This document shows positions 24,409-40,997 of a stretch of DNA of 64,000 nucleotides, one piece after another (the first letter of the stretch is position 1; each line of letters starts with the position of its first letter). Both the position numbers and the translations under genes were made by a program. This DNA comes from Hyphomicrobiales bacterium. Its GTDB lineage: Bacteria > Pseudomonadota > Alphaproteobacteria > Rhizobiales > Xanthobacteraceae. Location: contig JAFKKG010000013.1 of the NCBI GenBank assembly GCA_017305715.1, positions 124,001 to 188,000 on the forward strand. The letters run 5' to 3'. Below the pieces are notes generated by a model. It was not told the origin of the DNA and did not search any database. It saw only the letters and a list, made by a program, of their open reading frames with translations.

Positions 24409-24484
24409 GGGCGCATAGCTCAGTTGGTAGAGCAGATGACTCTTAATCATCGGGTCCCAGGTTCGAGCCCTGGTGCGCCCACCA
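24409..24484 (+). tRNA. tRNA-Lys (anticodon CTT)
   Basis: A 76-nt cloverleaf ending in encoded CCA. Acceptor GGGCGCA (24409-24415) pairs with TGCGCCC (24474-24480). D-arm GCTCAGTTGGTAGAGC; anticodon stem GATGA/TCATC with loop CTCTTAA, anticodon CTT at 24442-24444; T-arm with GTTCGAGCC. The 3' part is the attachment site of the island to its right. Confidence 0.96.
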
Positions 24485-24503
24485 AGCTTTTCAAGAATTT
24501 GGC
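24447..24503. repeat. attL: left attachment-site copy of the tRNA-Lys island
   Basis: This 57-bp stretch (3' part of tRNA-Lys plus 19-20 bp of flank ending AAGAATTTGGC) is repeated in direct orientation at 40941-40997 with one mismatch (24454 G versus 40948 A). Identity ends abruptly on the right in both copies. Confidence 0.88.
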
Positions 24504-24541
24504 CGAAACGCTCGATCCCATTCCGACATGGTGGTCATCGG

Positions 24542-24718
24542 CTATTCCGACAAACCGGCTGGTTTTGTTCGCTCCGCGCGGCGTTTTTGCACGCCGGAGA
24601 TCAGCTGCTTGCGCGTGCGTTTGGCGTAGGTGGGCAACTGCCGGTAGTGCGTGATCTCGAATGCCCCAACCAGGTGCTCCTCGCGCTGCAACCACTCCCA
24701 CGCTGTCAACGCCGTGGT
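24542..24718 (-). pseudogene. Orphan coding fragment, C-terminal end of an unidentified protein
   Basis: On the minus strand a frame reads TALTAWEWLQREEHLVGAFE, then ITHYRQLPTYAKRTRKQLIS and ends at TAG (24542-24544). It looks like natural protein but has no start; upstream it runs into a CCTAG tandem repeat. I do not recognise the family. Probably debris from an earlier gene at the left edge of the island. The rest of 24485-25118 shows no convincing gene. Confidence 0.35.
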
Positions 24719-24734
24719 AGCGAGCGAGTTATGG

Positions 24735-24764
24735 CCTAGCCTAGCCTAGCCTAGCCTAGCCTAG
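24735..24764. repeat. Tandem repeat, six copies of CCTAG
   Basis: Six uninterrupted 5-bp units from 24735 to 24764, followed by an imperfect TCTTAG. CTAG is rare in high-GC alphaproteobacterial DNA, so the cluster is unusual. It lies in the non-coding left border of the island. Confidence 0.85.
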
Positions 24765-25118
24765 TCTTAGCCTCGGTGCGGAGGATCGTTAGCTCTTCCC
24801 AGGTCGCGGTTGGGGTCTCCTTTTTCGATTGGTCGGGCTGGCGGGTGGGAATGGGAGGGGAGCATTTGGCGGCAACGCGTGGAACGTTCTTGATCCGAAC
24901 ACCATCTTACTCGGCAGCCTGCTCAATGGACCGCTATGGTGGCCTATAATCCTTCGCAACTGCGGGCAATCACCCAATCGAGACATCGGAATCGAGTATA
25001 GATCCCGAGTCGAACGGCAGCGATCTGATGTGGCTGGGTTTTCGTTGGCAGACAGTACAATTAAACTCCATCAGGGTGAGCGCGCGACTCGCTCGAAACA
25101 GAGAAGTGAAGCGCGTCG

Positions 25119-25769
25119 TCATTCCTTCCGAAAACGTCCGTATGCGATTTGTGACTTTGGGAACCCAAGCACGGATTCGGTTAGCAATGCGCAACTAGGA
25201 AATAGGCGCCGCAATTGGGCCGTCCAAATCGGTCTCGTCGAAGCCATTTGACGCCCCAAGAATCGTTCGTCCGTCCGAATCCAACGAATGATCCTCTTCT
25301 TTCGAAGGCGACTTGGCAGAAACCACCAGAAAGGCACGTTGCAATGCGCTTCAACGGGAAATAGAGGTGACGGAGTTTGTATCCAAAAAGCGTTGCCGGC
25401 AGATTTGACAAAGTTCGCAAAAAGTTTTTGCCGTCGCTCAGATCCAACATGCTCAATCACGCTGTTGCTGAACACGATATCGTACTTAGTCGGAAGCTCG
25501 CTTAACGTGCAAACATCCGCCTCTATCAATCTAAAGTGAGCTAGTTCTGAGGTGCTGAACTGAGCAAACTCACCCGGAAGATTTAGAAGGGTAATGTCGT
25601 AAGTGTCGCTACAGTCGTGCCAAAAACCCGGTGTGCCATTTAGCGAAGGCACCCCCCCAATATCTAGGATCTTTGCCCCACGAGCTGGTTTCATTATCTT
25701 CAGAAAGAGAGACATTCGCTTTTTACGAAATATCGGAACTAATTTCCATTTGAGGAGGCTGTATAACAT
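25119..25769 (-). CDS. Class I SAM-dependent methyltransferase (polysaccharide cluster)
   Basis: 216 residues. SAM motif I is GAKILDIGGVPSLNG, followed by the D/L strand YDITLLNLPGEF and the post-I motif KYDIVFSNSVIEHVG. The fold is a small Methyltransf_11-type domain. Codon use is more AT-rich than the core genome. It is the last gene of a minus-strand run that contains a radical SAM protein (9 bp gap), a polysaccharide deacetylase and a sugar transferase, so it may methylate a sugar, lipid or peptide component of the exopolysaccharide pathway. Confidence 0.8.
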   Translation of the reverse strand: MLYSLLKWKLVPIFRKKRMSLFLKIMKPARGAKILDIGGVPSLNGTPGFWHDCSDTYDITLLNLPGEFAQFSTSELAHFRLIEADVCTLSELPTKYDIVFSNSVIEHVGSERRQKLFANFVKSAGNAFWIQTPSPLFPVEAHCNVPFWWFLPSRLRKKRIIRWIRTDERFLGRQMASTRPIWTAQLRRLFPSCALLTESVLGFPKSQIAYGRFRKE

Positions 25770-25777
25770 AACGAATG

Positions 25778-26884
25778 CTATTCGGGTCGTTGTGATTTTG
25801 GACTCAACAGTACAATCGCACGACGAATATCATCTAAAATTGACCTATGAGCGGTGCACGAGGTTGCGCCCTTGGCGACTGCTATTTTCAAAGAGCATTC
25901 CCGTGAAGCTAACCGCGTTTCTCTAGCAATTGTACTTTCCCAGATGGATTTTGCACCTTGATCTCGAACGTTCCCAATCGCTTTAGCACACCCGCATACT
26001 TTAACGTCGCCACTCGGGCCAACTAAGAAGTTGCGAAGTGGGTCTCGACATTTTGCTCGCCCAAATTCTAATTCTCCCGAGAAGTGCGACACCATTCCTT
26101 CTAGGGCATCTACGCTTGTCTCTATTTTTGCTCCTTGTGCCTTTAGTTTGACAAGCTTATTTACCTCCGCCTTTAGGGCTTCAAGTTTATTGTCCTGGAT
26201 TGAAAGTTTCGCAATCTCCTCTTCGCGCCATAATCGGACGGCGTTGAAGTCGACCGCCGTCGCGCCGAGGCGTTCGGCCCAGTGAACGATTGGAGTTAGC
26301 CGGGTGGCATTCAGCCGGTGAACTGTAACCTTAATCCTAATTGGGAAATGGTTGCCGGAACGATTTCTCTCTATAACGAGCGTCCGCAAGCCTCGTTCAA
26401 TTCGCGCCAGTGACCCAGGTACACCTCGCGCAAGATCGTGAATGTCGTCGTTGGCGCCATCAATCGAAATATCAATTTTGAGGGGAGGCGCCGCAACAAG
26501 CCCTTTTACAAATTTTTCGTTTGCTAGGGACGATCCGTTCGTCGTCATGATCCAGTCAACATGGCTTGAACGACAAAATTCTATCAGCTCTAGGAAATGC
26601 GGGTAGATCGTTGGCTCCCCTCCGCTGAAATCAATGAGGAGGGGCGTAATATAATCTCTCAAGCTCTGGATCGCTTTCTTCCACTCTGCAACTGACATTT
26701 CTTCGGGGTAAGAGTTCATTCGCCAGTGCATGCAATACTGGCACTTATAATTGCATCGGTCGGTAAGTGTGCACTGAACGAACGCCGGATTGGTGAAATC
26801 CAAGCTCGTGCGGTGGAAGAAGTGTTCCCGGGCGGACTGTCCTATGCGGGCCCAGCCATGCCTTACTAGCCGTGTAGCGAGCAC
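25778..26884 (-). CDS. Radical SAM protein with SPASM/twitch-like C-terminus
   Basis: 368 residues. The [4Fe-4S]-SAM motif CNYKCQYC (CxxxCxxC, Cys 44, 48, 51) follows strand 1 FVQCTLTDR; next are DFSGGEPTIYPHFLELIEF and the substrate-side ISIDGANDDIHDLARG. The C-terminal third has CRDPLRNFLVGPSGDVKVCG with further Cys residues (CGC, REC), a SPASM/twitch-like auxiliary cluster region. Such proteins modify peptides, or sugars and lipids. It overlaps the deacetylase gene by 19 bp and precedes the methyltransferase, forming one operon on the island. Confidence 0.85.
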   Translation of the reverse strand: MLATRLVRHGWARIGQSAREHFFHRTSLDFTNPAFVQCTLTDRCNYKCQYCMHWRMNSYPEEMSVAEWKKAIQSLRDYITPLLIDFSGGEPTIYPHFLELIEFCRSSHVDWIMTTNGSSLANEKFVKGLVAAPPLKIDISIDGANDDIHDLARGVPGSLARIERGLRTLVIERNRSGNHFPIRIKVTVHRLNATRLTPIVHWAERLGATAVDFNAVRLWREEEIAKLSIQDNKLEALKAEVNKLVKLKAQGAKIETSVDALEGMVSHFSGELEFGRAKCRDPLRNFLVGPSGDVKVCGCAKAIGNVRDQGAKSIWESTIARETRLASRECSLKIAVAKGATSCTAHRSILDDIRRAIVLLSPKSQRPE

Positions 26885-27762
26885 TCATTGCCTCCCGTTT
26901 GCGCCAACTGAGCGTTCAGTTTCAAGCTTGGTTGATTGGTCCAGTCGATCATGGAATCTGCAGCGGCAATATCCACAAACGCGAAATCCCGTATTAATCG
27001 CTTAAATCGCAGAAGCGACGATTGCAGTCCTACGTACGATTTGAAAACCCGATACGGGGAGAGTTTAGGAACAGTCGGCTGACTAGCGTCGAAGTCCCGC
27101 GGATGAAAGTAGGTCATCACGTACTCCGATCTTGCCATCAACTGACGGACCAACGCGTAAGGCATAAGTCGAAAGTATCCTCCACCTGCGAAGTTTAGAT
27201 CAAACTTGCCAACGTCTGCAGGGACAACGGGAAACTCCTTCAAAGTCGCGCCCGCACATTCAACAACAACTGGCTTCCGCGCACTAAACGCAGGAAACCC
27301 GCCATGCGCGCGCCGCGACACAAAAACCGACGAGTCAATCTCGATGCCGCACTCGGCGAGTATTGAAAAAGCCCAGGCGCTTTCATGCGTAATCGAAAAA
27401 CCGGGTGATCGATAATACCGTATTTTGGATCCCGTTATATCCTGCAGGCTGGAAATAGAAGCGACCAAATCCTCCTTGAACAATTGCGGCGTTAACTGGT
27501 GAACCAGCCGATGACTATTGGAGTGTGATCCAATTTCATGTCCGGCCGCATGGATAGATCTAATCACATCAGGGTGGGTTCTTGCGATCCAGCCTAAACA
27601 AAAAAATGTCGCCTTAACGTCGGCTTCTGCCAAGCACTCAAGTATGATCGCCGCGTTTCGCGCGACGCGGGACTCGTACGCGTGCCATTGGAGTTCGTTC
27701 GCCGTTTCATCATGTTCGAGGAGATGAAACCAGTCTTCAACGTCAAAAGTTAGAATATGCAT
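26866..27762 (-). CDS. XrtA-system-type polysaccharide deacetylase
   Basis: 298 residues of the carbohydrate esterase 4 (NodB) fold. Metal site: TFDVEDWFH near the N-terminus and HSNSHRLVHQL (HxxxH); RYYRSPGFSITHESAWAF supplies the catalytic Arg/Pro loop. The C-terminal part (YVMTYFHPRDFDASQP onward) matches the DUF3473 extension that marks deacetylases of exosortase/EPS clusters. It would remove acetyl groups from a surface polysaccharide. Start ATG 27762; its 3' end overlaps the radical SAM gene. No exosortase is visible in the window, although a PEP-CTERM protein lies 3 kb away. Confidence 0.88.
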   Translation of the reverse strand: MHILTFDVEDWFHLLEHDETANELQWHAYESRVARNAAIILECLAEADVKATFFCLGWIARTHPDVIRSIHAAGHEIGSHSNSHRLVHQLTPQLFKEDLVASISSLQDITGSKIRYYRSPGFSITHESAWAFSILAECGIEIDSSVFVSRRAHGGFPAFSARKPVVVECAGATLKEFPVVPADVGKFDLNFAGGGYFRLMPYALVRQLMARSEYVMTYFHPRDFDASQPTVPKLSPYRVFKSYVGLQSSLLRFKRLIRDFAFVDIAAADSMIDWTNQPSLKLNAQLAQTGGNECSLHG

Positions 27763-27777
27763 TCGCGTGTCCCTAGA

Positions 27778-28485
27778 TCAAAGGCCTTTGCCTTGAGCAA
27801 CCCGGAGCATGCAAAGAATGATAAGTTTAAAGTCATAGAGAATCAGGCGGAAGGGCGACATTTCGTTCACCGCATTTAGGTATTTGTATTCGTCGTCTTG
27901 CTGTCCGTATCGTGGAGTACCTTTCAGCGCCTGCGACGGACCAAAAAGCCCTGCTCTCAGCAACTTGCGATGCACATTACCCTGCAGAAGGTCCCGATCA
28001 TAATGATGGGTTGCGAGTGGGCGTGGTCCAACTAAACTCATTTGGCCGAGCGCCACGTTTACGAGTTGTGGCAGCTCATCAAGGTAGAACTTCTTAAGAA
28101 GCGCTCCAAGGTAGGTGCGGCAACGTGGATCCCATTCTGCCGAGTAGGCGTGCCAATCTCCCGCTGCTGCTGCAGGTCGGTCGATATAGGCCTCCTTAAC
28201 CACGCAAAACTTGTATTTGCGAAACGTAGTCCCTCTACTAATCGCTTTGTAACTGATCAGCAGTGGGCCGCGTTGGCTCCGCATTAAGATAGACATTAGC
28301 GTATGGATGACGAACAGCGCGGCAATAAAGGGCACAGCGAGCAACAGTAGAATCACGCCGACCGCTCTATCAAAAAGAACCTTCAGCGTCGGTTCTCGAA
28401 CCGCTTTTTTCTCGAACAGATGGCCATACCGCGTCCGCGTATCTGCGGAGGGGGGCAAATGAGGAAAGGCTGGCTCGGCGCCCAT
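27778..28485 (-). CDS. Bacterial sugar transferase (undecaprenyl-phosphate hexose-1-P transferase type)
   Basis: 235 residues. One transmembrane segment (AVGVILLLLAVPFIAALFVI) precedes the cytoplasmic catalytic domain with FRKYKFCVV, LLKKFYLDELPQLVNVALGQ and the family hallmark MSLVGPRPL. Such enzymes load the first sugar phosphate onto undecaprenyl phosphate to start exopolysaccharide repeat synthesis. The protein is the short form, lacking the long multi-helix N-terminal region of WbaP/WcaJ. First gene of the minus-strand run, 15 bp ahead of the deacetylase, and divergent from the polymerase gene. Confidence 0.88.
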   Translation of the reverse strand: MGAEPAFPHLPPSADTRTRYGHLFEKKAVREPTLKVLFDRAVGVILLLLAVPFIAALFVIHTLMSILMRSQRGPLLISYKAISRGTTFRKYKFCVVKEAYIDRPAAAAGDWHAYSAEWDPRCRTYLGALLKKFYLDELPQLVNVALGQMSLVGPRPLATHHYDRDLLQGNVHRKLLRAGLFGPSQALKGTPRYGQQDDEYKYLNAVNEMSPFRLILYDFKLIILCMLRVAQGKGL

Positions 28486-28633
28486 ATCTACTCAGCACAA
28501 TTAGGCGAAGAAATAGGATGAATAAACGGTAGATTGCATTCTACTTTAGGGGGCATGTCAAGGGGAGCCCGCCTGCAGTAACGTTGAACTTGGGTCGTAC
28601 ATTCAACGGTTTTGGTAGTGAGCGGAGTAGGCA

Positions 28634-30049
28634 ATGCCAGAGCAGGGCAATTGGTTCGTTGTGTTTGCTATTCTAGGATGGCCAGTGGTCGCGTTAGGCG
28701 CCTATCTTTTCAGGCCCGCCTTGGAGGCCACAGCGTGGACAATTGTCGGCAGCCTACTCTTTCTTCCATCTAACGCCGGCATAAAGTTTGATATGGTTCC
28801 GGCTATCGACAAAAGTCTAGTATCCGCTATGTCCGCCTTTGTAGGATGTGCGATCTTAATCAAACGCCCGAAAGTCGTTCCGATCGGTCTCGGAGTTTTT
28901 CCATTTCTGATATTGCTTTACGTTCTCGGTCCTCTTTTCACCTCGCTCAGCAATGGGGACACTCTAGTTTACGGACCTGTGGTTCTTCCTGGTGTGGGAA
29001 TGTATGACGGTACATCAGCGTCCATCACGCAGTTGATCACCTTTTTTCCATTTCTTCTCGGCCAGCGATACTTTCAAGGGGATCGTGCTGTTCAGGTCAT
29101 CTTACGCGTTCTCGTGATTGCCGGCCTCATCTACTCAGTACTGATGTTGATAGAGATACGTGTGAGTCCCCAGCTGTCTCTATGGCTCTATGGTTACCTG
29201 CCTTCGACTTACGTAGCTGAGATGCGGTACGGCGGATTTCGCCCGGTAGTGTTTATGCAGAACGGTCTCGCGGCGGCGTTTTTTTTAATGACAGCGTTGA
29301 TCGCTGCTGTTGTGTTTTGGCGAGGAAGTAGTGTGTCAGGGAAAAGTACAAGAGCGGCGATTGTCGGGTACTTATTCGTCGTTCTCTTACTGTGCAAATC
29401 TGCGGGGGCAATGATCTATGCGATAGCTTGCGGTCCGATTGTTCGCTTTGCCGGCCCCCGTATGCAAACCATACTAGCCGCGCTGATAGTGATCATTTGC
29501 CTTCTGTATCCACTATTCAGGATTGCAGCATACATACCCGAGGAGAACATTCTGGGCGTCTCCTCGTTCTTCAACCAAGAGAGAGCCGAATCGTTGGGTT
29601 TTCGGTTCGAGCAAGAGAAGCAAATTATGGCGCGTACCGCTGAGAGGTTGATATTTGGCTGGGGACGGTATGGACGCAACCGCGTGTATGATGAAAACGG
29701 TAAAGATGTGAGCGTGACCGACGGTGCCTGGATTATTACTCTTAGCCAATTTGGGATTGTCGGCTTTCTGGGGCAGTTCGGATTACTTGGACTTCCAGTT
29801 TTCTGGGCTTTCCGAGCTATCAAGCGAGATCAAGTTCGCGGAGAAGAGCAGCTACCTTTGGCCGGATTAGCATTGATTGTATCTATCAGTTTGATGGAGC
29901 AGATTCCGAACGCTTCGATTAGTTCCTGGACGTGGCTCTTATCGGGAGTCTTGTTAGGTCGATCTCAGCGGCTTCTAAGGCGACGTTTTTCGTCGACCTC
30001 AGCGATCCGTGCTGCACATATCAATCGATCCCTTCACCAAACCGGGTGA
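28634..30049 (+). CDS. O-antigen ligase / Wzy-like polysaccharide polymerase
   Basis: 471 residues with ten or more membrane helices (GWPVVALGAYLF, FPFLILLYVLGPLFTSL, VILRVLVIAGLIYSVLMLIE, AAIVGYLFVVLLLCKSAGAM and others) and one larger loop around residues 305-365 (EERAE-type region then FGWGRYGRNRVYDENGKDVS, TDGAWIITLSQFGIVGFLG). This layout is that of the O-antigen ligase/polymerase superfamily. It starts 148 bp from the divergent sugar transferase, so one regulatory region serves both arms of the cluster. AT-rich codons fit acquisition with the island. Confidence 0.78.
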   Translation: MPEQGNWFVVFAILGWPVVALGAYLFRPALEATAWTIVGSLLFLPSNAGIKFDMVPAIDKSLVSAMSAFVGCAILIKRPKVVPIGLGVFPFLILLYVLGPLFTSLSNGDTLVYGPVVLPGVGMYDGTSASITQLITFFPFLLGQRYFQGDRAVQVILRVLVIAGLIYSVLMLIEIRVSPQLSLWLYGYLPSTYVAEMRYGGFRPVVFMQNGLAAAFFLMTALIAAVVFWRGSSVSGKSTRAAIVGYLFVVLLLCKSAGAMIYAIACGPIVRFAGPRMQTILAALIVIICLLYPLFRIAAYIPEENILGVSSFFNQERAESLGFRFEQEKQIMARTAERLIFGWGRYGRNRVYDENGKDVSVTDGAWIITLSQFGIVGFLGQFGLLGLPVFWAFRAIKRDQVRGEEQLPLAGLALIVSISLMEQIPNASISSWTWLLSGVLLGRSQRLLRRRFSSTSAIRAAHINRSLHQTG

Positions 30050-30133
30050 TAGCTTCGATTGTGCAAACTGTCGATTGTCGGATCCAGTTATGGTTGCCTA
30101 TCGTGGGTAACGAGACTCCCGACTAGCATTTTT

Positions 30134-30429: not shown

Positions 30430-31023
30430 TCAGGCTGCGAGGGCTGCAGTCTGGTTACGACGGCGATAAGCCATGAAGCCTACGCCAGCAAAGCCAAGGA
30501 TCATCATGGCCCAGGTCGATGGCTCGGGGATGGCTCCTGCTACAGTGACGCCATCGCTGAAGGTAACTCTATAGTCACCGGAAGCGGAACTGTTGGTGGC
30601 GGTGCGGGCGTCAGCTTCCGATCCGTAATGGCAACAGCTCGCAACAGCTAAAATGTAGTTTCCAGCCGCCAGATTCACAGCGAGGAAGGAGTCTAAACCA
30701 GAAATGCTGCCATCAAAGACACCGCCGTGATCGTCGTTTGTACCGAGCAGGGCGCCGGTTAGATTTCCAATCTGCGAGCCGTCGTCAACAAAGAGCTGAA
30801 TCCAAGAATCAGCTATTCCGTGCCCGGTCGGGCCACCAGTCCAACCGCTTGCTAAGATATCAATAGAGAGATTTCCACCTGAATAGAAAAAATTCACATA
30901 GTCCCAGCCAATGTTGGCTGATACGGAACGGTCGACCACCGCTGCGGCGTGAGCGTTTCCGGAAAACGTTGCCGCTGTCGCAAGCGTCAACCCTGTTATT
31001 AATCCAAAAATCCGCGATTTCAT
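30430..31023 (-). CDS. PEP-CTERM sorting-domain protein
   Basis: 197 residues. An N-terminal signal peptide ([23 protein letters not shown]) precedes a secreted, Ser/Gly-rich domain with no Lys-rich or catalytic pattern ([30 protein letters not shown]). The end is a classic PEP-CTERM signal: [20 protein letters not shown], then YRRR. Such proteins are recognised by an exosortase and linked to exopolysaccharide. None is encoded in the window, so processing depends on a gene elsewhere. It lies beside an exopolysaccharide cluster on the island. Confidence 0.9.
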
Positions 31024-31540
31024 TTAAGCCCCCTTTTTAATATTGTTAGTCATGTCTGAATAGCTGTCCCATTATTTGACCACAATGCGGAACTCACTGG
31101 ATAAACGTGCGGCACCCGGTCACACCCAAAAAGGGTGACATTGCTATTGATGTAGAGAAGAATTTTTTTATTCCGGATTGTGGCTTTGCCATTAGCCAGC
31201 GAAGTCAGGGGGCTTGCCGCGCTTCATTGCAAGTCCCGCTACGCGGCTCACTTGATCGCCCGGCCGACTGACGCCGCCGGCTGCAATCGGTATGATGCCA
31301 TATGGCAGACAACGAAAATGCTGAGCTTCCCTACGCTGTCCACGAGACGTTTCTCGGTGGCATGCTTGGTCGATTGGTCAGTCGCCACGAAACGCTTTTA
31401 GATGCTCTTGCGGTCGCGGCGGGGGCATCCAAAACCCGAGCGATCGTTCATGGGCAAACGATTGCTTGGCCACCATCGGGCGCGGAAGCTTAAGGGTGGA
31501 TGGCTATTGCATTCGCACCAGCAGACCGTCGAGCGCTAGA

Positions 31541-31648
31541 TGTGGTCTTTCAGGAGGTTGTCCATCCGACCCGAACCGAGGAAGCTGAGGTTGCGAAGCT
31601 TCAGTATTCCAGGGAGGACCGGATGGGCAACCTCCTGAAAGACCACAC
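31541..31648. mobile_element. MITE-like element with 28-bp terminal inverted repeats
   Basis: Arm 31541-31568 (begins TGTGGTCTTTCAGGAGG) and arm 31620-31647 are inverted with one mismatch, around 51 bp. The 5-bp CTAGA lies on both sides (31536-31540 and 31649-31653), compatible with a target duplication. No transposase is encoded, so it would be mobilised in trans. Confidence 0.6.
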
Positions 31649-31679
31649 CTAGAGCGCGCCAACCGCGGACCCTCGTCGG

Positions 31680-31808: not shown

Positions 31809-31828
31809 CGATGGTGGCGCGGGCCTCA

Positions 31829-32230
31829 AGCGTGAGCACCGCCGCCTCGGCAAGTTGAATGTCGCGACCGCGATAGTGCGCATCGAGAATAGCCTCGACG
31901 TCTTTCAACGAGTGGCCGGTGACGGCCGCGATCTGAGGCACGCTAGTCTAGCGCCGGCGATGGCGAGCCGGACGACAGCCGTGCCCCCGCAGGTCGTGAA
32001 ACGTCAGGCCCGTGACGCCAGCACGATCGCAGGCCTTTCCCCGAAAGCCATCTGACGTCCAGGGACGCCCGAACGTTTTCGTCAGGATCAGCGGCCAGAG
32101 CGGCACTGTGGGTCGAGAAGGGCCCTCAAGGGCCCGCCGGCGGGCATCGCAACACGCTGGCGGCTCTTGGATTGGCGAAGGCGAATATAAGGGCTCGACG
32201 CGCCAAACAGGTGAGCCCTTAGAAAAAAGC
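31829..32230 (-). pseudogene. Tyrosine integrase remnant (frameshifted)
   Basis: Minus-strand pieces in different frames spell the catalytic end of a phage-type integrase: PLILTKTFGRPWTSDGFR, AGVTGLTFHDLRG (with the HxxR box), a shifted TAVVRLAIAGA, then VPQIAAVTGHSLKDVEAILD followed by AHYRGRDIQLAEAAVL. Reading needs shifts near 32000 (one extra base after the HDLRG codons), near 31945 (about five extra bases, ACTAG) and near 32120. The catalytic Tyr is in AHYRGRD. The N-terminal half is missing. It is nearly identical in its last 90 bp to the remnant at 41060-41215. Confidence 0.75.
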
Positions 32231-32782: not shown

Positions 32783-32934
32783 TTCAAATTGTTGGGCCTG
32801 AATAATCGCTAGGTCGTCGCTAAGTGATGTTTGGAATACCGGTGTCCCTTTTACGGAATCGGCGAACCCGGCGCACGCTGCTTCAGCATCAGCGCTGCTC
32901 CCGCGGCATTTGCGCGATCCCGAGGCATGGCCCC

Positions 32935-33660
32935 TCACGGAGAATGCTCCGACCGCTGCAGTTTCTTTAGATGTCCGGTTAGTATCTTTACGAGTTCGGG
33001 GTCGATGGCGCTGGCCCCGCGGCGCCGCTTTTGCGCGTCAGCGATCGTGTAGCGGCCGTTGTCCCGCGCTTTGATCTTGCCGCGATGGAACGAGATGATC
33101 CTGACGAAGGGATCTCCTAGATCCTCGGCGATCATCTCGTCGGCCAGCGCTTCGGCGGCTTCCCAGCTCGATGCGCGTCTGAGCACGTCGAGCAGCAGCA
33201 TCCGCGTGTCGATCGAGGTGATGGGGCGCCCTGCGAGTTGTGCGGCGGCCCTGAGACGCAATGCAGCCGCTCGGTCCGGCTGGTTCCTGTCATCGGCGAT
33301 CCAGGCAGCGCATAACGTATCAAGGAATGCCGCCATCCGGTCGCCGTCATGGGCGTGCCCGGCGGCCCTGACCAAAAAGCGGTGCGCGGCCGGGTCGAAT
33401 GTCGGGTCCGCGGAAGCAGCTCGAAATTCCGGCGTCTGCATAAACCTCTTCGCCTTCGCATCGCCCCGTTCGATGTCGGGGGCTATATAGCCGCAGAAAG
33501 GGCATTCCAGCAGCCAGAAGTCGATGGTCGAGCGCCCCATGCCGCCCTCACGCTGGTCGAGGTCCCGCGAGCCAAAGGAGTTGGTGCTTAACAACACGGT
33601 TTGCTTGGACTTCTTGCCGCAGCAATAGCATCGCAGCTTTCTTTCTTCATAGTCCGTCAT
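32935..33660 (-). CDS. Hypothetical protein with zinc-ribbon-like Cys pairs
   Basis: 241 residues. Two Cys pairs near the N-terminus (LRCYCCGKKSKQ and LLECPFCGYIAPD) form a likely zinc ribbon. The remainder is helical, TPR-like in feel (DRAAALRLRAAAQLAGRPIT, RRASSWEAAEALADEMIAED). It resembles no family I can name. ATG 33660 is preferred; 13 further codons are open. A truncated, decayed copy of its last third lies at 39431-39760. It shares strand and spacing with the TPR and secreted genes upstream. Confidence 0.65.
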   Translation of the reverse strand: MTDYEERKLRCYCCGKKSKQTVLLSTNSFGSRDLDQREGGMGRSTIDFWLLECPFCGYIAPDIERGDAKAKRFMQTPEFRAASADPTFDPAAHRFLVRAAGHAHDGDRMAAFLDTLCAAWIADDRNQPDRAAALRLRAAAQLAGRPITSIDTRMLLLDVLRRASSWEAAEALADEMIAEDLGDPFVRIISFHRGKIKARDNGRYTIADAQKRRRGASAIDPELVKILTGHLKKLQRSEHSP

Positions 33661-33717
33661 CTGATCATCACCTGACCTTCGAAAGCCTGTCCCTGTCATC
33701 TCGTCCGCGAGCTAGCT

Positions 33718-34812
33718 TCAGCCCCATCGCTTTCTGGTGCTGAAATGAATACTCCGCGAAATTCCTACGAGCTTCTCCAGCAGCCCGTACCCATGGCTGT
33801 AAAGCGCCTTCTTGTTTCCAGGTAATTCCTCGATCCGGGACGCGAGGGTCGGTCGCTTGGCGTCGAGGAAGGTCCGTAACACCGCGAAGCATCGCTCCAG
33901 CATAGGCTCGGCCTTGTACGATCCATCGTGAGCATAGGCCTCTGCCAGCGCGGCCAGGATCCACAGCAGGGCGGCGGAATCGTTCCCGTAGACCCGCTCG
34001 AAAATATCGAGCAGGCGCTCCAGCGGGGGCATAGCCTCCCGGAAATCCCGGCAGTCGAGATAAGCGCGAGCCACAGATTCGAGCGTCTTCTGGACTTGCA
34101 GACTGTCCTGTTCGAACAGCGTCTCGTTGATGGTCAACGCCGTGTCAAACATGACCTTGGCCTTGCGGCGGTGCTCGGCCTCGACGCTCGATCGTACCTG
34201 CTTGCTGGCCGCGATATAGACGACGCCGAGCTCAACCAGCATCGTTGCGGTCTGCTGGCTCTCTCCACCGAAAACAGTCTCGTGCACGTCGAGGCAGCGT
34301 CCGCAATAGCGGTCGGCCAACTCTTGCTCCTCGGAGCTGAGGCAGACGCCGACCAATTGCTCGAGCGCGGCAGCGACTTCGGCACTTTCGGCGCCGTAAA
34401 GCTCGGTCTTGATGGCGAGGCTGCGCTCAAGAAACGGCAGAGCATTCGAAGGTTCTTTGCGCGCCAGATATCGTGCAGCGATATCGTTGCACTCGTTGGC
34501 GACCTCCGGGCCGACATCTCCAAAGGCTGCGGCCTTGATCTCCAGTCGCTTCAGAAGGAACGGCTCGAGCAGCTTGAATCCGCCCGAGTGCCTGTGACCG
34601 ATCCATTCGTCGAGCTGCGGTAGAAGCGATGCTGGGCCCCGTAATGCTTCGCCGATCCTGAGGCTGCGCTCGAAATACGGAATGGCAACCGTCGGCTTGG
34701 CGGCTTGGCAGATCAGCATAGCCAGCGTGTGTAGCGCAGTCGCCACCTCAGCGCTGTCGGTACCGAACTTGCGTTCCAGACCGGCGATATGGGCAAGGTG
34801 GTCGTCGTACAT
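33718..34812 (-). CDS. TPR protein (kinesin-light-chain-like repeats)
   Basis: 364 residues made of about seven TPR units of the 42-residue KLC type, e.g. VATALHTLAMLICQAAKPTV then AIPYFERSLRIGEALRG, and SNALPFLERSLAIKTELYGA, with the recurring GxxSxEVAxxL spacing. A scaffold for protein-protein contacts; no catalytic domain, signal peptide or membrane helix. It lies between the zinc-ribbon-like gene and a small secreted protein on the same strand. A related TPR gene is at 35285-36394, suggesting an ancient duplication within the cluster. Confidence 0.78.
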   Translation of the reverse strand: MYDDHLAHIAGLERKFGTDSAEVATALHTLAMLICQAAKPTVAIPYFERSLRIGEALRGPASLLPQLDEWIGHRHSGGFKLLEPFLLKRLEIKAAAFGDVGPEVANECNDIAARYLARKEPSNALPFLERSLAIKTELYGAESAEVAAALEQLVGVCLSSEEQELADRYCGRCLDVHETVFGGESQQTATMLVELGVVYIAASKQVRSSVEAEHRRKAKVMFDTALTINETLFEQDSLQVQKTLESVARAYLDCRDFREAMPPLERLLDIFERVYGNDSAALLWILAALAEAYAHDGSYKAEPMLERCFAVLRTFLDAKRPTLASRIEELPGNKKALYSHGYGLLEKLVGISRSIHFSTRKRWG

Positions 34813-34852
34813 GAAAGTTGTTGACCTCCAGATAACGGTGAAGACGATGTAC

Positions 34853-35269
34853 TCAGCGGCGCAGGATCACGGCCGGCGGCTGGTCGCGCGTTAAGCCGAA
34901 CCGTTTTTTGCACATCGAACCGAACGTCCCAGCGGAGGCGATCGCGGCCGCGCCCACGTTGGCTGGTTCAACCATCATCTGCAGGATGCGTCCGCTTGGT
35001 GATACCAGCGCCGTCACCTTGCAGTTGAAGGTCTCATGGTTCACGATCTGGTCGCCCGGAAAATCGAGAGTCGTTGCCAATCGCCATTGATAGGCGCGAT
35101 TATGCTTGCCGACGACGTCGACGGAATCGGGCTGTCCGTGGATGCGTATGAAATCCGTGATGGGAGCGAGCTTCAGCCTGCCCGCATGCGCGGCTGTCGC
35201 TGCCCCAGACGTCACGAGGACCGCGAGTGCGAGAACGACTGCAAAAGCAACATCTGAACGGGAATGCAC
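34853..35269 (-). CDS. Small secreted hypothetical protein
   Basis: 138 residues with a clear signal peptide (FAVVLALAVLVTSGAATAAH, AG). The mature part is about 110 residues with two Cys that could form a disulfide (FNCKVTALVSPSGRILQMMV and MCKKRFGL). No known family. Placed between the two TPR genes with short gaps (41 and 16 bp), so probably co-transcribed. Confidence 0.65.
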   Translation of the reverse strand: MHSRSDVAFAVVLALAVLVTSGAATAAHAGRLKLAPITDFIRIHGQPDSVDVVGKHNRAYQWRLATTLDFPGDQIVNHETFNCKVTALVSPSGRILQMMVEPANVGAAAIASAGTFGSMCKKRFGLTRDQPPAVILRR

Positions 35270-35284
35270 AGGTCATCATCCAAT

Positions 35285-36394
35285 CTAGGGTGCGTGCAGG
35301 TCGAGCATGTTCGGCGCATAATCCCGATGGGCCCCGTCCTGGCTCATGGCAACCCAGGCGAGGACCTCTGCCAGGCGGTCATCCCGCGGGTCGGGTGCCC
35401 TACTCATTTGTGTGACCAGGTCGTCGTCCATCGAATCCGGCCAAAGTTCGCGCAGCGCGGCGGTGCGCGCATCGGCGGGCAGCGCGAAGATTCTTCCCAG
35501 CGCCGCGATGGCGAGCCCGGCGACGTCGCTGGCGTCCGTCCTGCGCTCCGCGTCGAGCAGCCGCTGGGCGAACTGCAGCAACAGCCTGGCCGTCCCTGGC
35601 CATATCGTGGCAGGGCCGTCTGGCAGCAGCGACGTCAGGTCCTCGACGCGGCCATAGCGGGCTAGTGCCTGGGTGGTCGCCGCAAAGGCTTCTATCAGCT
35701 CGGCGGGATCTTTGGCCAGCATGGCCGCTTTGGCCTGCAGGCTACGTTGCAGCAGCGGCCCGATCTCGGCCGCATGCTCCAATGCAGCCAGGGTGCGGAT
35801 CAATGCATCGAGCGTGGCTGCAAGCTTGGTATCGTCAGGCGTCTCCATGGTCGTGCGGATGGCAAAGGCCCGGCGAAGCAGCGGCTCGGCCTCGGCCGGC
35901 TTTTTGGTCCGTAGCAGCAGCTTGCCGAGCCGCAGCAGCGTCGCCGCGGCCTCGCCGGACTGCGGTCCGTAGATTTTTTCGACCAGTTCAAGACACCGCT
36001 TCTGGCAGGACACGGCATCCTCGATTCGAAACGTCCTTAGATGGCGATCGGTGAGTTCCTCCAGTGCCGGCAGCAGATCGAGGCTGGCCGCGCCAAGCGC
36101 GCTCTCCCGGACCTCTTGGCTGCGGCGGAACAGCTCGCCTGCCTCCTCCTTGCCCTTATGTTCGGCGCATTTGGCCCAGCGCAGCAGTGCGTCCGCAACC
36201 CTGACGTCGGCGCCGAGCATGCTCTCTCGGATTTGCAGGCTACGGCGGAAGTAAGGCTCGGCGCCGGAATAGATCCGGTTCGCCGCGTACCACAGCGCAA
36301 ATTCCTCGAGCGCGTCCGCGACCCTCAGGTCCTGCGGTCCAAACTCCGCTTCCAGCCGGGCGATCTCGGCCCGCTTCTCGTCGATTCCTGACAT
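35285..36394 (-). CDS. Second TPR protein (kinesin-light-chain-like repeats)
   Basis: 369 residues from ATG 36394 (MSGIDEKRAEIARLEAEFG); nine further in-frame codons precede it. The first two thirds are TPR units of the KLC type (GAEPYFRRSLQIRESMLGAD, SGEAAATLLRLGKLLLRTKK, AEAEPLLRRAFAIRTTMET). The C-terminal third is helical without clear repeats and ends with LAEVLAWVAMSQDGAHRDYA. Similar to the TPR protein at 33718-34812. No enzyme domain. Probably a scaffold within the unrecognised cluster. Confidence 0.78.
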   Translation of the reverse strand: MSGIDEKRAEIARLEAEFGPQDLRVADALEEFALWYAANRIYSGAEPYFRRSLQIRESMLGADVRVADALLRWAKCAEHKGKEEAGELFRRSQEVRESALGAASLDLLPALEELTDRHLRTFRIEDAVSCQKRCLELVEKIYGPQSGEAAATLLRLGKLLLRTKKPAEAEPLLRRAFAIRTTMETPDDTKLAATLDALIRTLAALEHAAEIGPLLQRSLQAKAAMLAKDPAELIEAFAATTQALARYGRVEDLTSLLPDGPATIWPGTARLLLQFAQRLLDAERRTDASDVAGLAIAALGRIFALPADARTAALRELWPDSMDDDLVTQMSRAPDPRDDRLAEVLAWVAMSQDGAHRDYAPNMLDLHAP

Positions 36395-36511
36395 AGCGCG
36401 ATGATTACTCCCTGGTCGCACCTTAAGATTAGGTGACGCAATGCTGATCCGGAAGTCTGTCTATCGCCAGATCAATTGCATTGCCCCGACGTGGATAATT
36501 GCCCTTCGCCA

Positions 36512-36757
36512 CTACTTGCCGCCGCATCTTTCGATGGCGGAACGCCAATTGGGTGCGTCTACGCGCGGCAGCCTGTACTTGTTGCGCGCGGCCGAAATCA
36601 CCAGCGGGTCCGCCTTCTCAATCACGGACAGCAGGCGCGATTGGAGGCGCTCCCAATGCTTGCCAAATAGCTCGGGGTCGCGCCGGGAGAAGCCGAGGTC
36701 CCATTGCACGAAGGTAGTTTGGTCGGCGCCGTCCGTCTCCTCGAACTCGCCGGGCAA
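36512..36757 (-). CDS. Small hypothetical protein or fragment
   Basis: 81 residues: a charged, aromatic-rich soluble sequence (TTFVQWDLGFSRRDPELFGK, HWERLQSRLLSVIEKADPLV). No signal peptide. The start has a weak ribosome site, and the upstream sequence hints that it may be the 3' part of a longer decayed gene. Same strand as its neighbours. No family recognised. Confidence 0.4.
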   Translation of the reverse strand: MPGEFEETDGADQTTFVQWDLGFSRRDPELFGKHWERLQSRLLSVIEKADPLVISAARNKYRLPRVDAPNWRSAIERCGGK

Positions 36758-36863
36758 TGGATACGGAAGCCATACTTAGCGACTTGCCTCGGGAAATGCG
36801 TGCGCTTCAACCAATCTGACTCTCTGCAGCCCTCATGCGTTACGCGATACATATTTCTCGGGC

Positions 36864-38477
36864 TCAATCGGGAACCGTAGTATTCGACTCTGCGTGATGC
36901 GCGCCGTGGCAATGCTTGAATCGCTTTCCTGAATTGCATGGGCAAAGGTCGTTACGTCGTACGCCACTAAACTCCATGGACGTCTTCAATTCATCGGGAA
37001 GCCTCAAGAGTGGGGCAGACGGTTCATCCGGACCTGCCGCCAACAATTTCGCGGGCGGCATCCTTGGGCGATTCATCAGCCATCCGGCCAAACATCCGAA
37101 TAATATGAGCCCGCCTAGAAACGCCAAACCCTTCTTGCTGTCATTAAACCGTTTGACCTCATCCTCCTCGCGCTGCCTGGCTTCTTTCAAGCGCTGCTCC
37201 TCTTGATCCGCGTACCACTTTGCGGCGGCTTGGAGTGCCGTCGGAGGAACAGTCCAACTTACCGATAATTTTTCTGGCCTTGAAAGAAAGATCGCGCGCT
37301 TCAGCAGTGCCATTTGCGTCGGCGACTTTTCTGATCCGCTACCAATGTAGTTCGACGTCATACGAGATGCGAATCCGAGCGAAACTCCCCCGCATACAGT
37401 CGACACGAGCGAGAGACGGCGTCGGCCCTTTGCTTCTTCAATGATCTCCCAACGCCCCAAGCCTGGAAGCGAATCCGGCACTTCAACGTGATCAATCTCA
37501 TGGGCGTCGATCAGTTGACGGAGTTCATACGAATAGAAGTTCTGGTCCGTCAAAATATGCGCAATCGCAAAATGCCGATAGATATTATACATGTCGCGCC
37601 AAATTGGCTCGGCCCGAAATGTCTCTTCCATGCGAGCGGTCCAAGCACAGGCAAATTCCCTTGCTATGGGGTCTACGTTTCCGTTCTTGGCGCCCGCCTC
37701 TGCGTCTCCATCTGCGTCGCTGAGGATCACTTGAGCCGACCGCAAGGATGCTATTTGATAATCGTGTGCGTATTCGAACTTGCCGGGTTCGAACCAGAAC
37801 CGACGTCGACTGCTCCATTCGGCCGCCATATCGTCATCCCGAAGCTTCTGCCGCGACTGCTCGAGTCGCCGAGCAAAAGTTCCTGGCAACGGCGGGTTAA
37901 CCGGCAATTGAAGCGTGCCCTGTGAAACTTGCTTCATGCGATAGTCGGCCTCGACTAGCACTTTTGTAACTCTGGAATGTCTAGGCAGGGCGTCGACCCG
38001 AACCGCTTGTGGCTGGTTAGAGCACACTCGCAGGTATTGTTGCTTAGCGGCCGCGTCTCTCCCTGAAATCTGGTTTAGATTGGGCGTTTGGCTTCTGTCC
38101 GGGTCCAAGGAGATTCCTGGCTCGATCTTTCCGTATTTTCTGTTGGCTGATCTTATCGCGACAATGAGGTCGTCGAGATAAAGGTCCGGTTGGCCCTTCT
38201 CACCGACTCCGCCAAGTATGATATCGTTGTCGTCGTCTCGACAGACAACATCAATACGGGTCAACCCAGTAAGCCGCTTTTGTCCGCCAGTCTTCGCGCG
38301 CTTCAACGCTTCGCGTAGCGAGACCGCTACTTCCGCCCCCGATTCCGTTTTCGATACCACGGGGGAAACGTTGCAAACATTGTCAGCTGCCGCCGCAGTC
38401 AGCGGCTTATGTACGACTAATGCGGTTACTCCGGACGCCAGAAAACTGCGCCGATTGATAAGCCCCCTGTGCGTCAT
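36864..38477 (-). CDS. Tat-exported DUF1598-like protein with C-terminal membrane segment and SEC-C motif
   Basis: 537 residues in an unusual order. N-terminus: twin-arginine signal NRRSFLASGVTALVV. Residues about 40-380: a domain resembling DUF1598 (DDLIVAIRSANRKYGKIEPG, RVTKVLVEADYRMKQVSQG, RRRFWFEPGKFEYAHD), mainly known from planctomycetes. Residues about 445-465: a transmembrane helix (KGLAFLGGLILFGCLAGWLM). C-terminus: a zinc-binding SEC-C motif (CPCNSGKRFKHCHG). With an N-out/C-in topology, the SEC-C end would face the cytoplasm. Third-to-last gene of the unknown cluster by position; not an annotated system as far as I know. Confidence 0.7.
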   Translation of the reverse strand: MTHRGLINRRSFLASGVTALVVHKPLTAAAADNVCNVSPVVSKTESGAEVAVSLREALKRAKTGGQKRLTGLTRIDVVCRDDDNDIILGGVGEKGQPDLYLDDLIVAIRSANRKYGKIEPGISLDPDRSQTPNLNQISGRDAAAKQQYLRVCSNQPQAVRVDALPRHSRVTKVLVEADYRMKQVSQGTLQLPVNPPLPGTFARRLEQSRQKLRDDDMAAEWSSRRRFWFEPGKFEYAHDYQIASLRSAQVILSDADGDAEAGAKNGNVDPIAREFACAWTARMEETFRAEPIWRDMYNIYRHFAIAHILTDQNFYSYELRQLIDAHEIDHVEVPDSLPGLGRWEIIEEAKGRRRLSLVSTVCGGVSLGFASRMTSNYIGSGSEKSPTQMALLKRAIFLSRPEKLSVSWTVPPTALQAAAKWYADQEEQRLKEARQREEDEVKRFNDSKKGLAFLGGLILFGCLAGWLMNRPRMPPAKLLAAGPDEPSAPLLRLPDELKTSMEFSGVRRNDLCPCNSGKRFKHCHGAHHAESNTTVPD

Positions 38478-38510
38478 GAAATTTGTTTCTCCGACCCAAT
38501 AGACCAGCGA

Positions 38511-39173
38511 TTAAGAATCTGGCTTTCTCAAATTAAGAACCTTACGCCTGAGTTCACTCAGGTCGCTTTCCGTTCCCGTCGGAATCGCTCCGATATGCAC
38601 GCCGCCGACAGGCCCTGAGGATACCGAATTATTTGGGCGGCTGACGTTTGCCCCCGATGGCTTTGAGCCAATCTCAGGTGAAGTCGAGCCTGATCCGGTT
38701 GGCTCGAGGGGGCCGCTGACTCCCGACTCTCTGGTGAGAGCGGAATTTCCGCTTGGGTGGGAATTCGATCTCGGGGCACCGGGTGCCAGGCGCCCACCTC
38801 CGGTGCCCGAAACGTCCGACTCCAAGGGCGTGCGCTGGTTTCGCCTGCGCTGAAGCTCCTGCAACTCGCGACCAACGGCGGCTGCGCCGTTCAATCGCAT
38901 CGTCTGTTCTTGAGGACTTTCGTAGTCAGGTCTGGTCGTGAGATTTTCTCTCAACGATAGTTTATCAATGCATACGCCATGATCCCAGCCGTCTTGCGCG
39001 ACGTGCTGTCCGTGCTTTTCGCACTCCATGCATTTCTTATACAGATTCTGCAGTTCGACCGAGATGTAACTGCAGTTCCATCCGGGACCGAATTTCTTCT
39101 GCAGGGTTTCAGCGTGGGCCGGACAATTGGTGATTCCGAGGGCGAAAATTGCAACGAGAATGAAGTAGCGCAT
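38511..39173 (-). CDS. Secreted Ser/Gly/Pro-rich hypothetical protein
   Basis: 220 residues from ATG 39173. Signal peptide RYFILVAIFALGITNCPAHA. The mature N-terminal 80 residues have six Cys (WNCSYISVELQNLYKKCMEC, CEKHGQH, HGVCIDK), suggesting a small disulfide- or metal-stabilised domain. The rest is low complexity, rich in Ser, Gly and Pro (SNSHPSGNSALTRESGVSGP). No family recognised. It precedes the DUF1598-like gene by 33 bp on the same strand and probably belongs to one transcript. Confidence 0.6.
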   Translation of the reverse strand: MRYFILVAIFALGITNCPAHAETLQKKFGPGWNCSYISVELQNLYKKCMECEKHGQHVAQDGWDHGVCIDKLSLRENLTTRPDYESPQEQTMRLNGAAAVGRELQELQRRRNQRTPLESDVSGTGGGRLAPGAPRSNSHPSGNSALTRESGVSGPLEPTGSGSTSPEIGSKPSGANVSRPNNSVSSGPVGGVHIGAIPTGTESDLSELRRKVLNLRKPDS

Positions 39174-39430
39174 GAAATCGCTCAACTGAAATTAACATGA
39201 CCGGATCGATACCCGACCAATCCAATATTTTCACCTGCCTGGCCTAATCCAACGGAACTGTCTAGACAGCTCATTTTTGTCACGACCTACCGAAGGTCCG
39301 CAATTAGTATAACTGCGCAAAATCGAGTGTTAACCACACCGATGGCGTTGGCTTTGTCGATCGCCCGGGCTTGATGTTCATGCTTTGTACGTCTCGAACG
39401 CTTCAGTGCGCCTGCGTGAAATGTGATCCA

Positions 39431-39760
39431 TTACGTCGGCCAACCCGGTGAGCGCCGCTTCTGCAAATGATGCGCCAGCAGCTTGAGCATTTCCGCGTTA
39501 GCTTCGTCGTTGCCTCGTTCCCTCCTGTGCGCTTCCGCGATCGTATAACGACCGGGGTCTCTGGCTACGATCTTGCGGCGATGAAAGGAAATGTTCGTCG
39601 AGAACGGGTGCTCCAACTCCTAGGCGGTCAATTCGTCGGCCAGCGCAGGGCGCGTTGCCAGCTCGATGCGCGCCGGGGCATCGCGAACTCAACCGGATCA
39701 GCATCGGGAACGAGGCGCGCGAGGTGCCGAACGGTTCTCGGATATCCGATAAATAGAGCA
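39431..39760 (-). pseudogene. Decayed partial copy of the zinc-ribbon-like gene
   Basis: The readable end (STNISFHRRKIVARDPGRYT, then IAEAHRRERGNDEANAEMLK) is similar to the end of the protein at 32935-33660 (IISFHRGKIKARDNGRYTIA). Upstream, ALADELTA is followed by a TAG stop, where the intact protein has ALADEMIAED, and the earlier part is frame-shifted. So this is a broken, truncated paralogue, 6 kb from its intact relative. Confidence 0.65.
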
Positions 39761-39765
39761 TGGCG

Positions 39766-40065
39766 CTACTCCTTTGCTCCACGAAGCGCCGCATCGACGA
39801 TGGTCCGTTTGTCGCACCCATAGATCGCGCTTAGTGCCGCAGCATCCTTGGCGAAATACTCTTTGTAAACATCAGTCAGATTGTCCAAAGCGCTGGTGTA
39901 TTTCCTGGCGGATTCAGCGGTCATTGCGATGAATTTCCGGTCGTAAGAACTGCTCGTATCCTTAAAGAAAGCTTGAAAGCCCTGGTCGACCCGCGCCTTG
40001 TCACAGGCGTGCACCTGTGAGGCCGTTACGAAGAGTAAGGTCGTGCTGGCCAGCAAACGTCTCAT
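39766..40065 (-). CDS. Small secreted hypothetical protein
   Basis: 99 residues from ATG 40065: a signal peptide (RRLLASTTLLFVTASQVHA) and a compact mature chain with two Cys (ACDKARVDQGF and IYGCDKR) that may pair. ATG 40065 is preferred over an in-frame ATG at 40104. No family recognised. It stands between two stretches of decayed DNA. Confidence 0.55.
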   Translation of the reverse strand: MRRLLASTTLLFVTASQVHACDKARVDQGFQAFFKDTSSSYDRKFIAMTAESARKYTSALDNLTDVYKEYFAKDAAALSAIYGCDKRTIVDAALRGAKE

Positions 40066-40159
40066 GGCAATTCCTTGGCTCGGAGGATGGTTGACTCGGA
40101 GCATAGGTAAACGTCACGCGGGCAGCATGACCCAAACGAGCTAGGATAACCCATTTGGG

Positions 40160-40499
40160 TCAACCGGGAGTTTTAGTTTTCGCTAGATACTCTTGGCTCG
40201 CCTCGTGAGATTCAACGAAAATCTGGCCGGTATCGTCGAACGCCTCGTTCGCGCGGAAATCCACCGGGTCGCCGGCCGCGGTTTCTGACGCCGACACGAA
40301 CTCTTGTTTGCATCCTATTGGTGCGTCAACGGATGACCCAAGCACGTCGCCTAAACTCGTTCGACGCCACATCAACCTCGCCCAGAAAGGCTTGTAGTTT
40401 GGGGGCAATTGCCAGGTCATGAAGGGCGCGGTCGACCGTATGGCGGGTGAAACTTCGGCACAAAAAGCTATTTTCCTCACGCCAGATTAGATCGCTCAT
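40160..40499 (-). pseudogene. Possible frameshifted hypothetical gene
   Basis: From ATG 40499 (ribosome site GGTGAG) a frame encodes SDLIWREENSFLCRSFTRHT and stops at 40326. In a second frame the continuation EFVSASETAAGDPVDFRANE, VESHEASQEYLAKTKTPG also looks natural and ends at 40160. Together they may be one gene broken by a shift near 40330. Family unknown. Confidence 0.3.
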
Positions 40500-40659
40500 C
40501 TTTCTCACCCTGTTGTCGAGATTGGATTCGCGTGCAGTGGCTTTCCAAGCAGGGGCATGGGGAGGCCCTCCTATTTCTTTTTCTTGCGGACGCTCTGGTA
40601 CGGCTTGATGTGAACGACCTTCGTTCCACCAAGCTTGTTCTTGATCTTGCGTGTACTAG

Positions 40660-40833
40660 GCTTCGCGCTGACTCAGCCCGAGGTCGCGAAGAAGCTCCGG
40701 CGATATCAGTCCTTTGTCGCCACCGTTGAAGGTGGGCAAGATCGACGTGGTTGAGCTTCTTGCCTTTGCCGAAGCAATCGGGTTCGATCCTCGTGAAGCG
40801 ATTAGACGCCTCTCTTCGGTCAGACCCGACTGA
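40660..40833 (+). pseudogene. XRE-family HTH regulator fragment, frameshifted
   Basis: GFALTQPEVAKKLRRYQSFV, ATVEGG is the helix-turn-helix core of an XRE-type regulator. One base later the other frame continues KIDVVELLAFAEAIGFDPRE, AIRRL, the usual end of this small family, stopping at 40831-40833. The junction (near 40735) is a frameshift, and no intact start is visible. Confidence 0.65.
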
Positions 40834-40940
40834 TTCTCCCAATTAATATTCTTCCGCCAGTATGAGCGTGATCACTCGCCGGGTGACGGTGGGATGGCTG
40901 CGCGAGAGGGGAAGGGCGCTCGGGACGCAGGGGGCGCAGG

Positions 40941-40997
40941 TCATCGGATCCCAGGTTCGAGCCCTGGTGCGCCCACCAAGCTTTTCAAGAATTTGGC
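40941..40997. repeat. attR: right attachment-site copy of the tRNA-Lys island
   Basis: Direct repeat of 24447-24503, 56 of 57 bases the same, carrying the 3' end of tRNA-Lys (T-arm, acceptor, CCA) plus flank, but no 5' half of the tRNA. The integrase remnant lies immediately to its right. Confidence 0.88.

Follow-up and report, generated by a model that had tools for sequence, protein, structure and literature searches.

The gene for tRNA-Lys(CTT), trnK-CTT, is a described site of stacked genomic islands in Bradyrhizobium. The sections of PMC3927601 devoted to it report the stacked islands BJ6TGI04-07 in trnK-CTT of Bradyrhizobium japonicum USDA6, cite multiple insertions at the same gene in USDA110, and suggest that trnK-CTT may be a hotspot. 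The sites of symbiosis integrative and conjugative elements (symICEs) in Bradyrhizobium, as given in the relevant parts of PMC9174649 and PMC9239051, are tRNA-Val, Ile, Glu, Gln, Pro, Arg and His genes and ybgC, not tRNA-Lys; the part of PMC11837538 dealing with symbiosis ICEs likewise names tRNA genes other than Lys. Our search of the literature on tRNA-Lys islands in Bradyrhizobium found nothing on the island of the strain studied here. We analysed 64,000 nt (hereafter the window) of the forward strand of Hyphomicrobiales bacterium GCA_017305715.1 (contig JAFKKG010000013.1, positions 124,001 to 188,000), in which tRNA-Lys(CTT) is followed by a 16.5-kb interval that ends in a second copy of the 3′ part of the gene. 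Taken as a whole, the locus is best explained, as we hold with good confidence, by repeated integration at tRNA-Lys(CTT) that has left a decayed stack of elements.

The duplicated tRNA-Lys 3′ end

The features on which this explanation rests, including the two attachment (att) copies and the integrase remnants, are listed below by position in the window; compared genomes are denoted by G and a number.

24409..24484 (+): tRNA-Lys(CTT), intact, the putative integration target (ARAGORN)
24447..24503 (+): att copy 1 (putative attL), last 38 bases of the tRNA plus 19 bp (57-bp direct repeat)
24545..24891 (-): int_A fossil, pieces of a predicted tyrosine integrase (tblastn)
31822..32189 (-): int_B fossil 1, frame-broken PF00589-type integrase remnant inside the interval (tblastn with the G028 and G026 integrases)
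40941..40997 (+): att copy 2, putative attR of the newer insertion and left edge of older DNA (57-bp repeat; flank comparison with G183 and G012)
41058..41192 (-): int_B fossil 2, ~45 residues, just outside att copy 2 (tblastn; repeat to fossil 1)

The tRNA-Lys(CTT) gene is the single tRNA gene in the window and is intact. A reading made from the sequence alone had proposed an island inserted into this gene and marked by a 57-bp direct repeat with one mismatch. Our comparison reproduced that repeat (24447-24503 and 40941-40997, spacing 16494) and set its flank part at 19 bp. The match between the copies begins at tRNA position 39, which lies within the anticodon loop three positions beyond the anticodon, and its limits are abrupt on either side. 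ARAGORN and the geometry of the repeat also bore out the proposal that tRNA-Lys is the attachment site and that the left copy leaves the tRNA intact. A query made of the tRNA and the 19 bp behind it matched no third att copy in the strain's own genome; two weaker matches were rejected, being complete tRNA-Thr and tRNA-Trp genes.

The lower GC content that had been noted between the copies was confirmed as well, at 0.5545 for 24504-40940 against 0.638 to the left and 0.624 to the right (mean 0.619). Among 294 sampling windows of 16.4 kb over 310 kb, one was as low (0.5534, start 25001), and it overlaps the interval; the minimum among the 262 windows of interval size that do not overlap it was 0.599. 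The two largest tetranucleotide deviations among 123 windows of 5 kb start at 25001 and 27501. Composition is also uneven within the interval, with a GC of 0.516 at 24.5-31.1 kb versus 0.581 at 31.5-40.9 kb.

Fossils of two integrase types

Against an intact 423-residue protein of G003 (P0001), the int_A fossil aligns in two pieces, at residues 189-264 and 391-423. The part between residues 264 and 391, the catalytic middle, is missing, and the N-terminus was not found by tblastn. The 3′ end of the fossil lies 136 bp from the start of the tRNA, and six of the 30 best-homologue int_A loci have tRNA-Lys at this end with a spacing of 136-137 bp.

Since the G003 protein had no Pfam match at 0.001, no PHROGs match at 0.01 and no meaningful NCBIfam match, the nature of int_A was tested by profiles and fold; the G012 member also lacked Pfam and PHROGs matches at these thresholds. 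Alignment of 12 members revealed conserved R250, K278, R364, H387 and Y396, which we take to be the catalytic residues of tyrosine integrases, and Thr in all 12 at the position three residues before the second Arg, where His is expected. A profile of the Bradyrhizobium members alone scored a probability of 5.7 against canonical integrases and had no meaningful PDB match; that of a wider set with 16 relatives from viral contigs scored 95.8. PF00589 matched 12 of these 16 relatives and a PHROG integrase 11, and three of the four phage records with distant relatives are annotated as integrase. The predicted fold of one relative had lambda integrase as its best PDB matches (E 2e-6, TM-scores ~0.4-0.5), from a moderate model (pLDDT 71, pTM 0.43) of a protein itself without a Pfam or PHROGs match. 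The wider profile, the relatives with PF00589 and the fold matches together identify int_A as a tyrosine recombinase.

The int_A family was found in 117 of 257 genus genomes (E 1e-30). Six Bradyrhizobium plasmids carry relatives as well, and five of these relatives bear the label “hypothetical protein”; those on NZ_CP145949.1 and NZ_CP096256.1, plasmids typed as conjugative or mobilizable, are full-length (83% identical) and carry this label. A tRNA-Lys 3′ fragment with a partial int_A was seen in G015 (G015:C1:7362052, L089), inverted relative to the tRNA-Lys gene and 3.9 Mb away from it, which suggests a large inversion or a split element. We raise only tentatively, as a doubtful proposal, that int_A might form a divergent tyrosine integrase branch, missed by Pfam, NCBIfam and PHROGs in the Bradyrhizobium members tested, with one clade dedicated to tRNA-Lys(CTT) that would be a main driver of genus-wide stacking.

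Integrase debris had been reported between the repeat copies; it is present there, and it also lies outside them, at 41058-41192. The int_B fossil 1 is 50% identical over ~90 residues to the integrases of G028 and G026 (tblastn, E 6e-19 and 4e-17, respectively), fossil 2 is 41-45% identical to them over 44 residues, and 95 bp of fossil 2 are 94% identical to 31824-31918 of fossil 1. In G028 and G026 the PF00589 integrase is found downstream of tRNA-Lys, at a distance of 237 and 397 bp, respectively, so the int_B type too can sit at this gene. Searches of the int_B places with the int_A query, and the reverse, gave no match at E 0.01.

Since a second, different integrase fossil lies inside the interval, it probably consists of two decayed elements, the segments of GC 0.516 and 0.581. 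The interval has an intact tRNA, a duplicated tRNA 3′ end, an integrase fossil next to the tRNA and atypical composition, as expected of a tRNA-integrated island, and lacks the intact integrase expected of a self-mobile one. Three integrase copies were found up to position 64000, and all are broken: int_A by its missing middle, int_B fossil 1 by a stop and frame breaks, and fossil 2 by being a short remnant. We therefore regard the stack as probably immobile, given these three copies and no transfer genes recognised among the scanned open reading frames (ORFs). The 16.5-kb interval is a genuine but decayed island, probably composed of at least two older insertions.

Displaced flanks and probable stacking at tRNA-Lys

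To the left of the tRNA, the flank query had at least a partial match in all 265 genus genomes. The right flank was queried with 41000-44700 in 37 genomes, 22 of them same-genus relatives. The longest same-genus matches lie in G015 and G019, far from tRNA-Lys, with short ones elsewhere; near tRNA-Lys, the 22 relatives gave one match, 106 bp in G006, which belongs to a regulator gene with 39% protein identity to 43502-44575. The post-tRNA DNA of 34 relatives has little in common (up to 19 kb compared), with larger sharing among G005/G018/G027 (11.8-14.5 kb), G013/G017/G022/G034 (~2 kb) and G006/G031 (1.5 kb). In G019, a block behind the distal tRNA-Lys fragment was considered as a common right flank and dropped, because its genes lie elsewhere in the strain studied here and in most of the listed genus matches; G006 took its place in the comparison. 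The flank genes of G012 have weak matches (27-34%) in stretches from G000, G006, G031 and G019.

In G006, ~200 bp of DNA separate the tRNA from a ~9-kb block whose collinear counterpart on this contig lies outside the window, at ~83664-92640 (L124 onward). On the simplest reading, ~59 kb separates tRNA-Lys from its older neighbour in this strain. Together with the sister int_B fossil right of att copy 2, the G006 order indicates that accessory DNA of older date, rather than core flank, probably makes up 41-83.66 kb.

These observations bear on the proposal, made in the sequence-only reading, of a single 16.5-kb island flanked by core DNA. An island in kind is what we found; the single-island-in-core part is unsupported, since the interval holds fossils of two different integrases and a third fossil lies immediately beyond its right att copy, and since the DNA right of 40997 is not beside tRNA-Lys in the 22 relatives (the 106-bp G006 match excepted) and the G006 block is displaced. 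A single island would agree with the one clean att pair, the one intact tRNA and a right-hand GC of 0.624 near the mean, provided that int_B at 31.8 kb was carried or later acquired and that the right-hand DNA is ordinary chromosome. It sits poorly with two compositional segments, with a near-identical int_B fossil just beyond attR and with right-hand DNA displaced by ~59 kb relative to G006, and we consider it unlikely.

The bases that follow the repeat were compared next to those of relatives. The closest match across the full left-flank query came from G183 (90%), whose contig ends 201 bp after the tRNA. The 14 bases of G183 past the att agree with the right copy at 11/14 versus 5/14 for the left copy, a level reached by 25 of 100000 random 14-mers from this contig, and its 201-bp tail aligned at 50.5 to the right side versus 31.0 to the left, with a maximum of 48.5 in 300 shuffles against the right side. 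After a tRNA-Lys fragment of G012, the next 14 bases agree with the right copy at 10/14 versus 5/14 for the left. The G183 and G012 flanks thinly fit an assignment of copy 1 as candidate attL and copy 2 as candidate attR.

The copy at 40941 could instead be the leftover att of an unrelated insertion, with the material between the copies built by insertion sequences and deletions. Such a history would account for the decayed integrases, the palindromic repeat at 31530-31658 and the lack of a further att copy in the interval, but not for the classical geometry of the locus (intact tRNA, repeat from the anticodon loop, int_A at the expected spacing) or for the resemblance of the flank after copy 2 to those of G183 and G012. 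We judge it less probable still than the single island.

The stacked insertions that we favour would have arisen in several steps. Older accessory DNA, now right of 40997 to ~83.66 kb, would have lain beside tRNA-Lys first and would be marked by the sister int_B fossil right of 40997. A later element, carrying an attP identical to the tRNA 3′ end, may then have entered at that end by site-specific recombination, restoring the tRNA at its left end (attL 24447-24503) with int_A directly behind, and moving the earlier copy out to 40941-40997, now attR. Within the interval would lie another element, with int_B, its inner att lost; given this loss, the segment with the polysaccharide and PEP-CTERM genes (24.5-31.1 kb) and that with the unknown and TPR proteins (31.5-40.9 kb) may be read as two elements head to tail. 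The newest element, the int_A segment, would be nearest the tRNA, the older ones having been pushed outward before the integrases decayed. Two integrase types with tRNA-Lys-adjacent relatives and the ~59-kb displacement versus G006 speak for stacking in trnK-CTT, yet only two att copies are present. An att-bounded interval thus need not equal one island; the two integrase types and the displaced flank point to stacked, decayed insertions.

Several results weigh against this reconstruction. The clean empty site that had been predicted, with 24446 joined to 40998, was not found: no relative joins these positions over a useful length, and agreement with the native flank spans 14-26 bp. No att remnant was detected near 31.0-31.8 kb, and the far junction at ~83.66 kb likewise yielded no att copy, which leaves a single relative, G006, to define that border. 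G006 has no clear preference in the flank comparison (right 5/14 versus left 3/14). Relatives of int_B also lie by tRNA-Ser (G022) and tRNA-Arg (G040), so arrival of int_B via tRNA-Lys is not necessary, and most of the best int_A loci (24 of 30) lack any nearby tRNA-Lys 3′ end (within 250 bp).

Across the genus, the tRNA-Lys 3′ 37-mer (at most one mismatch) occurs at least twice in 166 of 265 genomes including this one (absent in 15, once in 84, twice in 84, three to eight times in 82), counted at any position with the tRNA gene included, where extra copies need not all be tRNA-Lys-downstream fragments and draft assemblies may split or double copies. Of 27 loci scanned for tRNA genes, 25 are fragment loci without any tRNA gene; a candidate fragment in G022 (contig 34 at 78947) was rejected as a tRNA-Ser(TGA) gene. 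In G106 the 37-mer occurs five times, at positions that equal the borders of the four trnK-CTT islands of USDA6 as given in the island account of PMC3927601, and from these borders we infer that G106 is USDA6. The genus count points to a trnK-CTT hotspot that extends beyond the two strains for which it is published to the genus as a whole, and the int_A and int_B families offer a handle on which integrases use the tRNA-Lys site.

Cargo and comparison with known systems

Exopolysaccharide-type and unknown genes had been reported between the att copies, in agreement with the Pfam and NCBIfam matches obtained here. The cargo is as follows.

25119..25769 (-): methyltransferase-like protein, 216 aa (Pfam below cutoff; neighbours kept in other genomes)
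25778..26884 (-): radical SAM/SPASM protein, 368 aa (Pfam PF04055, PF13186)
26866..27762 (-): XrtA-type polysaccharide deacetylase (DUF3473), 298 aa (Pfam; NCBIfam TIGR03006 best match, below its cutoff)
27778..28485 (-): bacterial sugar transferase, 235 aa (PF02397)
28634..30049 (+): Wzy/O-antigen-ligase-like membrane protein, 471 aa (PF04932 below cutoff)
30430..31023 (-): PEP-CTERM protein, 197 aa (PF07589; NCBIfam)
31530..31658 (no strand): short palindromic element (arms of 39 bp) that recurs in many genomes of the genus
32333..40104 (-): segment B cargo, unknown proteins, TPR proteins (33718-34812, 35285-36421) and a SEC-C/DUF1598 protein (36864-38477) (ORF list, Pfam, NCBIfam)

Outward from the tRNA, the int_A fossil is thus followed by the methyltransferase-like, radical SAM/SPASM, deacetylase and sugar transferase genes (-), the Wzy-like gene (+) and the PEP-CTERM gene; beyond 31.5 kb come the palindromic repeat, the int_B fossil, unknown proteins, two TPR proteins and the SEC-C protein. 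One further copy of the palindromic element was seen on a plasmid of Bradyrhizobium sp. 187, and the TPR gene region 35589-36442 has an 89% identical copy ~132 kb leftward on the same contig (C40:27039-27888).

None of the 22 same-genus relatives searched with the interval yielded its cargo beside tRNA-Lys, where the matching part was the int_A fossil, and a plasmid search gave one record matching 1% of the interval. Seven genus loci were examined for the radical SAM gene: the four genes of 25119-28485 are adjacent in G155, G262 and G240, G102 has all four polysaccharide-type genes, the methyltransferase being matched in part, in G273 all four survive as broken pieces, and the radical SAM gene occurs without the other three in G091 and G087. 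The loci in G240 and G102 lie ~0.5 and ~3.6 Mb away from tRNA-Lys. The radical SAM query found no relative in a search of genome contigs; the deacetylase query found 107, of which 80 were kept, with a sugar transferase nearby in 6 and no other tested cargo gene in any. Relatives of the Wzy-like protein occur in 34 others of 257 genus genomes, and in 11 genomes inspected no other polysaccharide gene lay within ~9 kb of them, short PEP-CTERM tail matches in three excepted. The best DNA relatives of the segment B cargo lie elsewhere in G005 and in the own genome. Defence-system models gave weak or motif-level matches only.

The cargo also bears on whether the interval could be part of a split (polypartite) symbiosis ICE as known in Bradyrhizobium. 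Such elements share the genus and tRNA-based integration, according to the relevant part of PMC9174649; the symICE sites given there and in the corresponding part of PMC9239051 do not include tRNA-Lys, and no relaxase, type IV secretion, nod or nif family was found among 18 interval ORFs searched against Pfam, smaller ORFs not having been scanned. We regard this origin as extremely improbable.

The int_A loci in G003, G123, G158, G181, G061 and G227 are the closest counterparts of the tRNA-proximal part, with the same family and the same 136-137 bp between integrase end and tRNA-Lys start. The int_A matches in those six loci have no internal stop (that of G227 begins at residue 20), whereas here the catalytic middle is missing. 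Lambda-type tyrosine integrases (PF00589) resemble int_A in the predicted fold of a relative and in the conserved R, K, R, H and Y, and differ in that int_A has Thr for the expected His and that its G003 and G012 members match neither Pfam nor PHROGs. As described in the island sections of PMC3927601, BJ6TGI04-07 share with our locus the tRNA gene, a duplicated tRNA 3′ end (45-46 bp), a head-to-tail series of islands and GC below the genome average; the present locus differs by a 57-bp repeat, one extra copy, broken integrases and one att-bounded interval left. It is a known kind of element at a known hotspot, and itself a further example.

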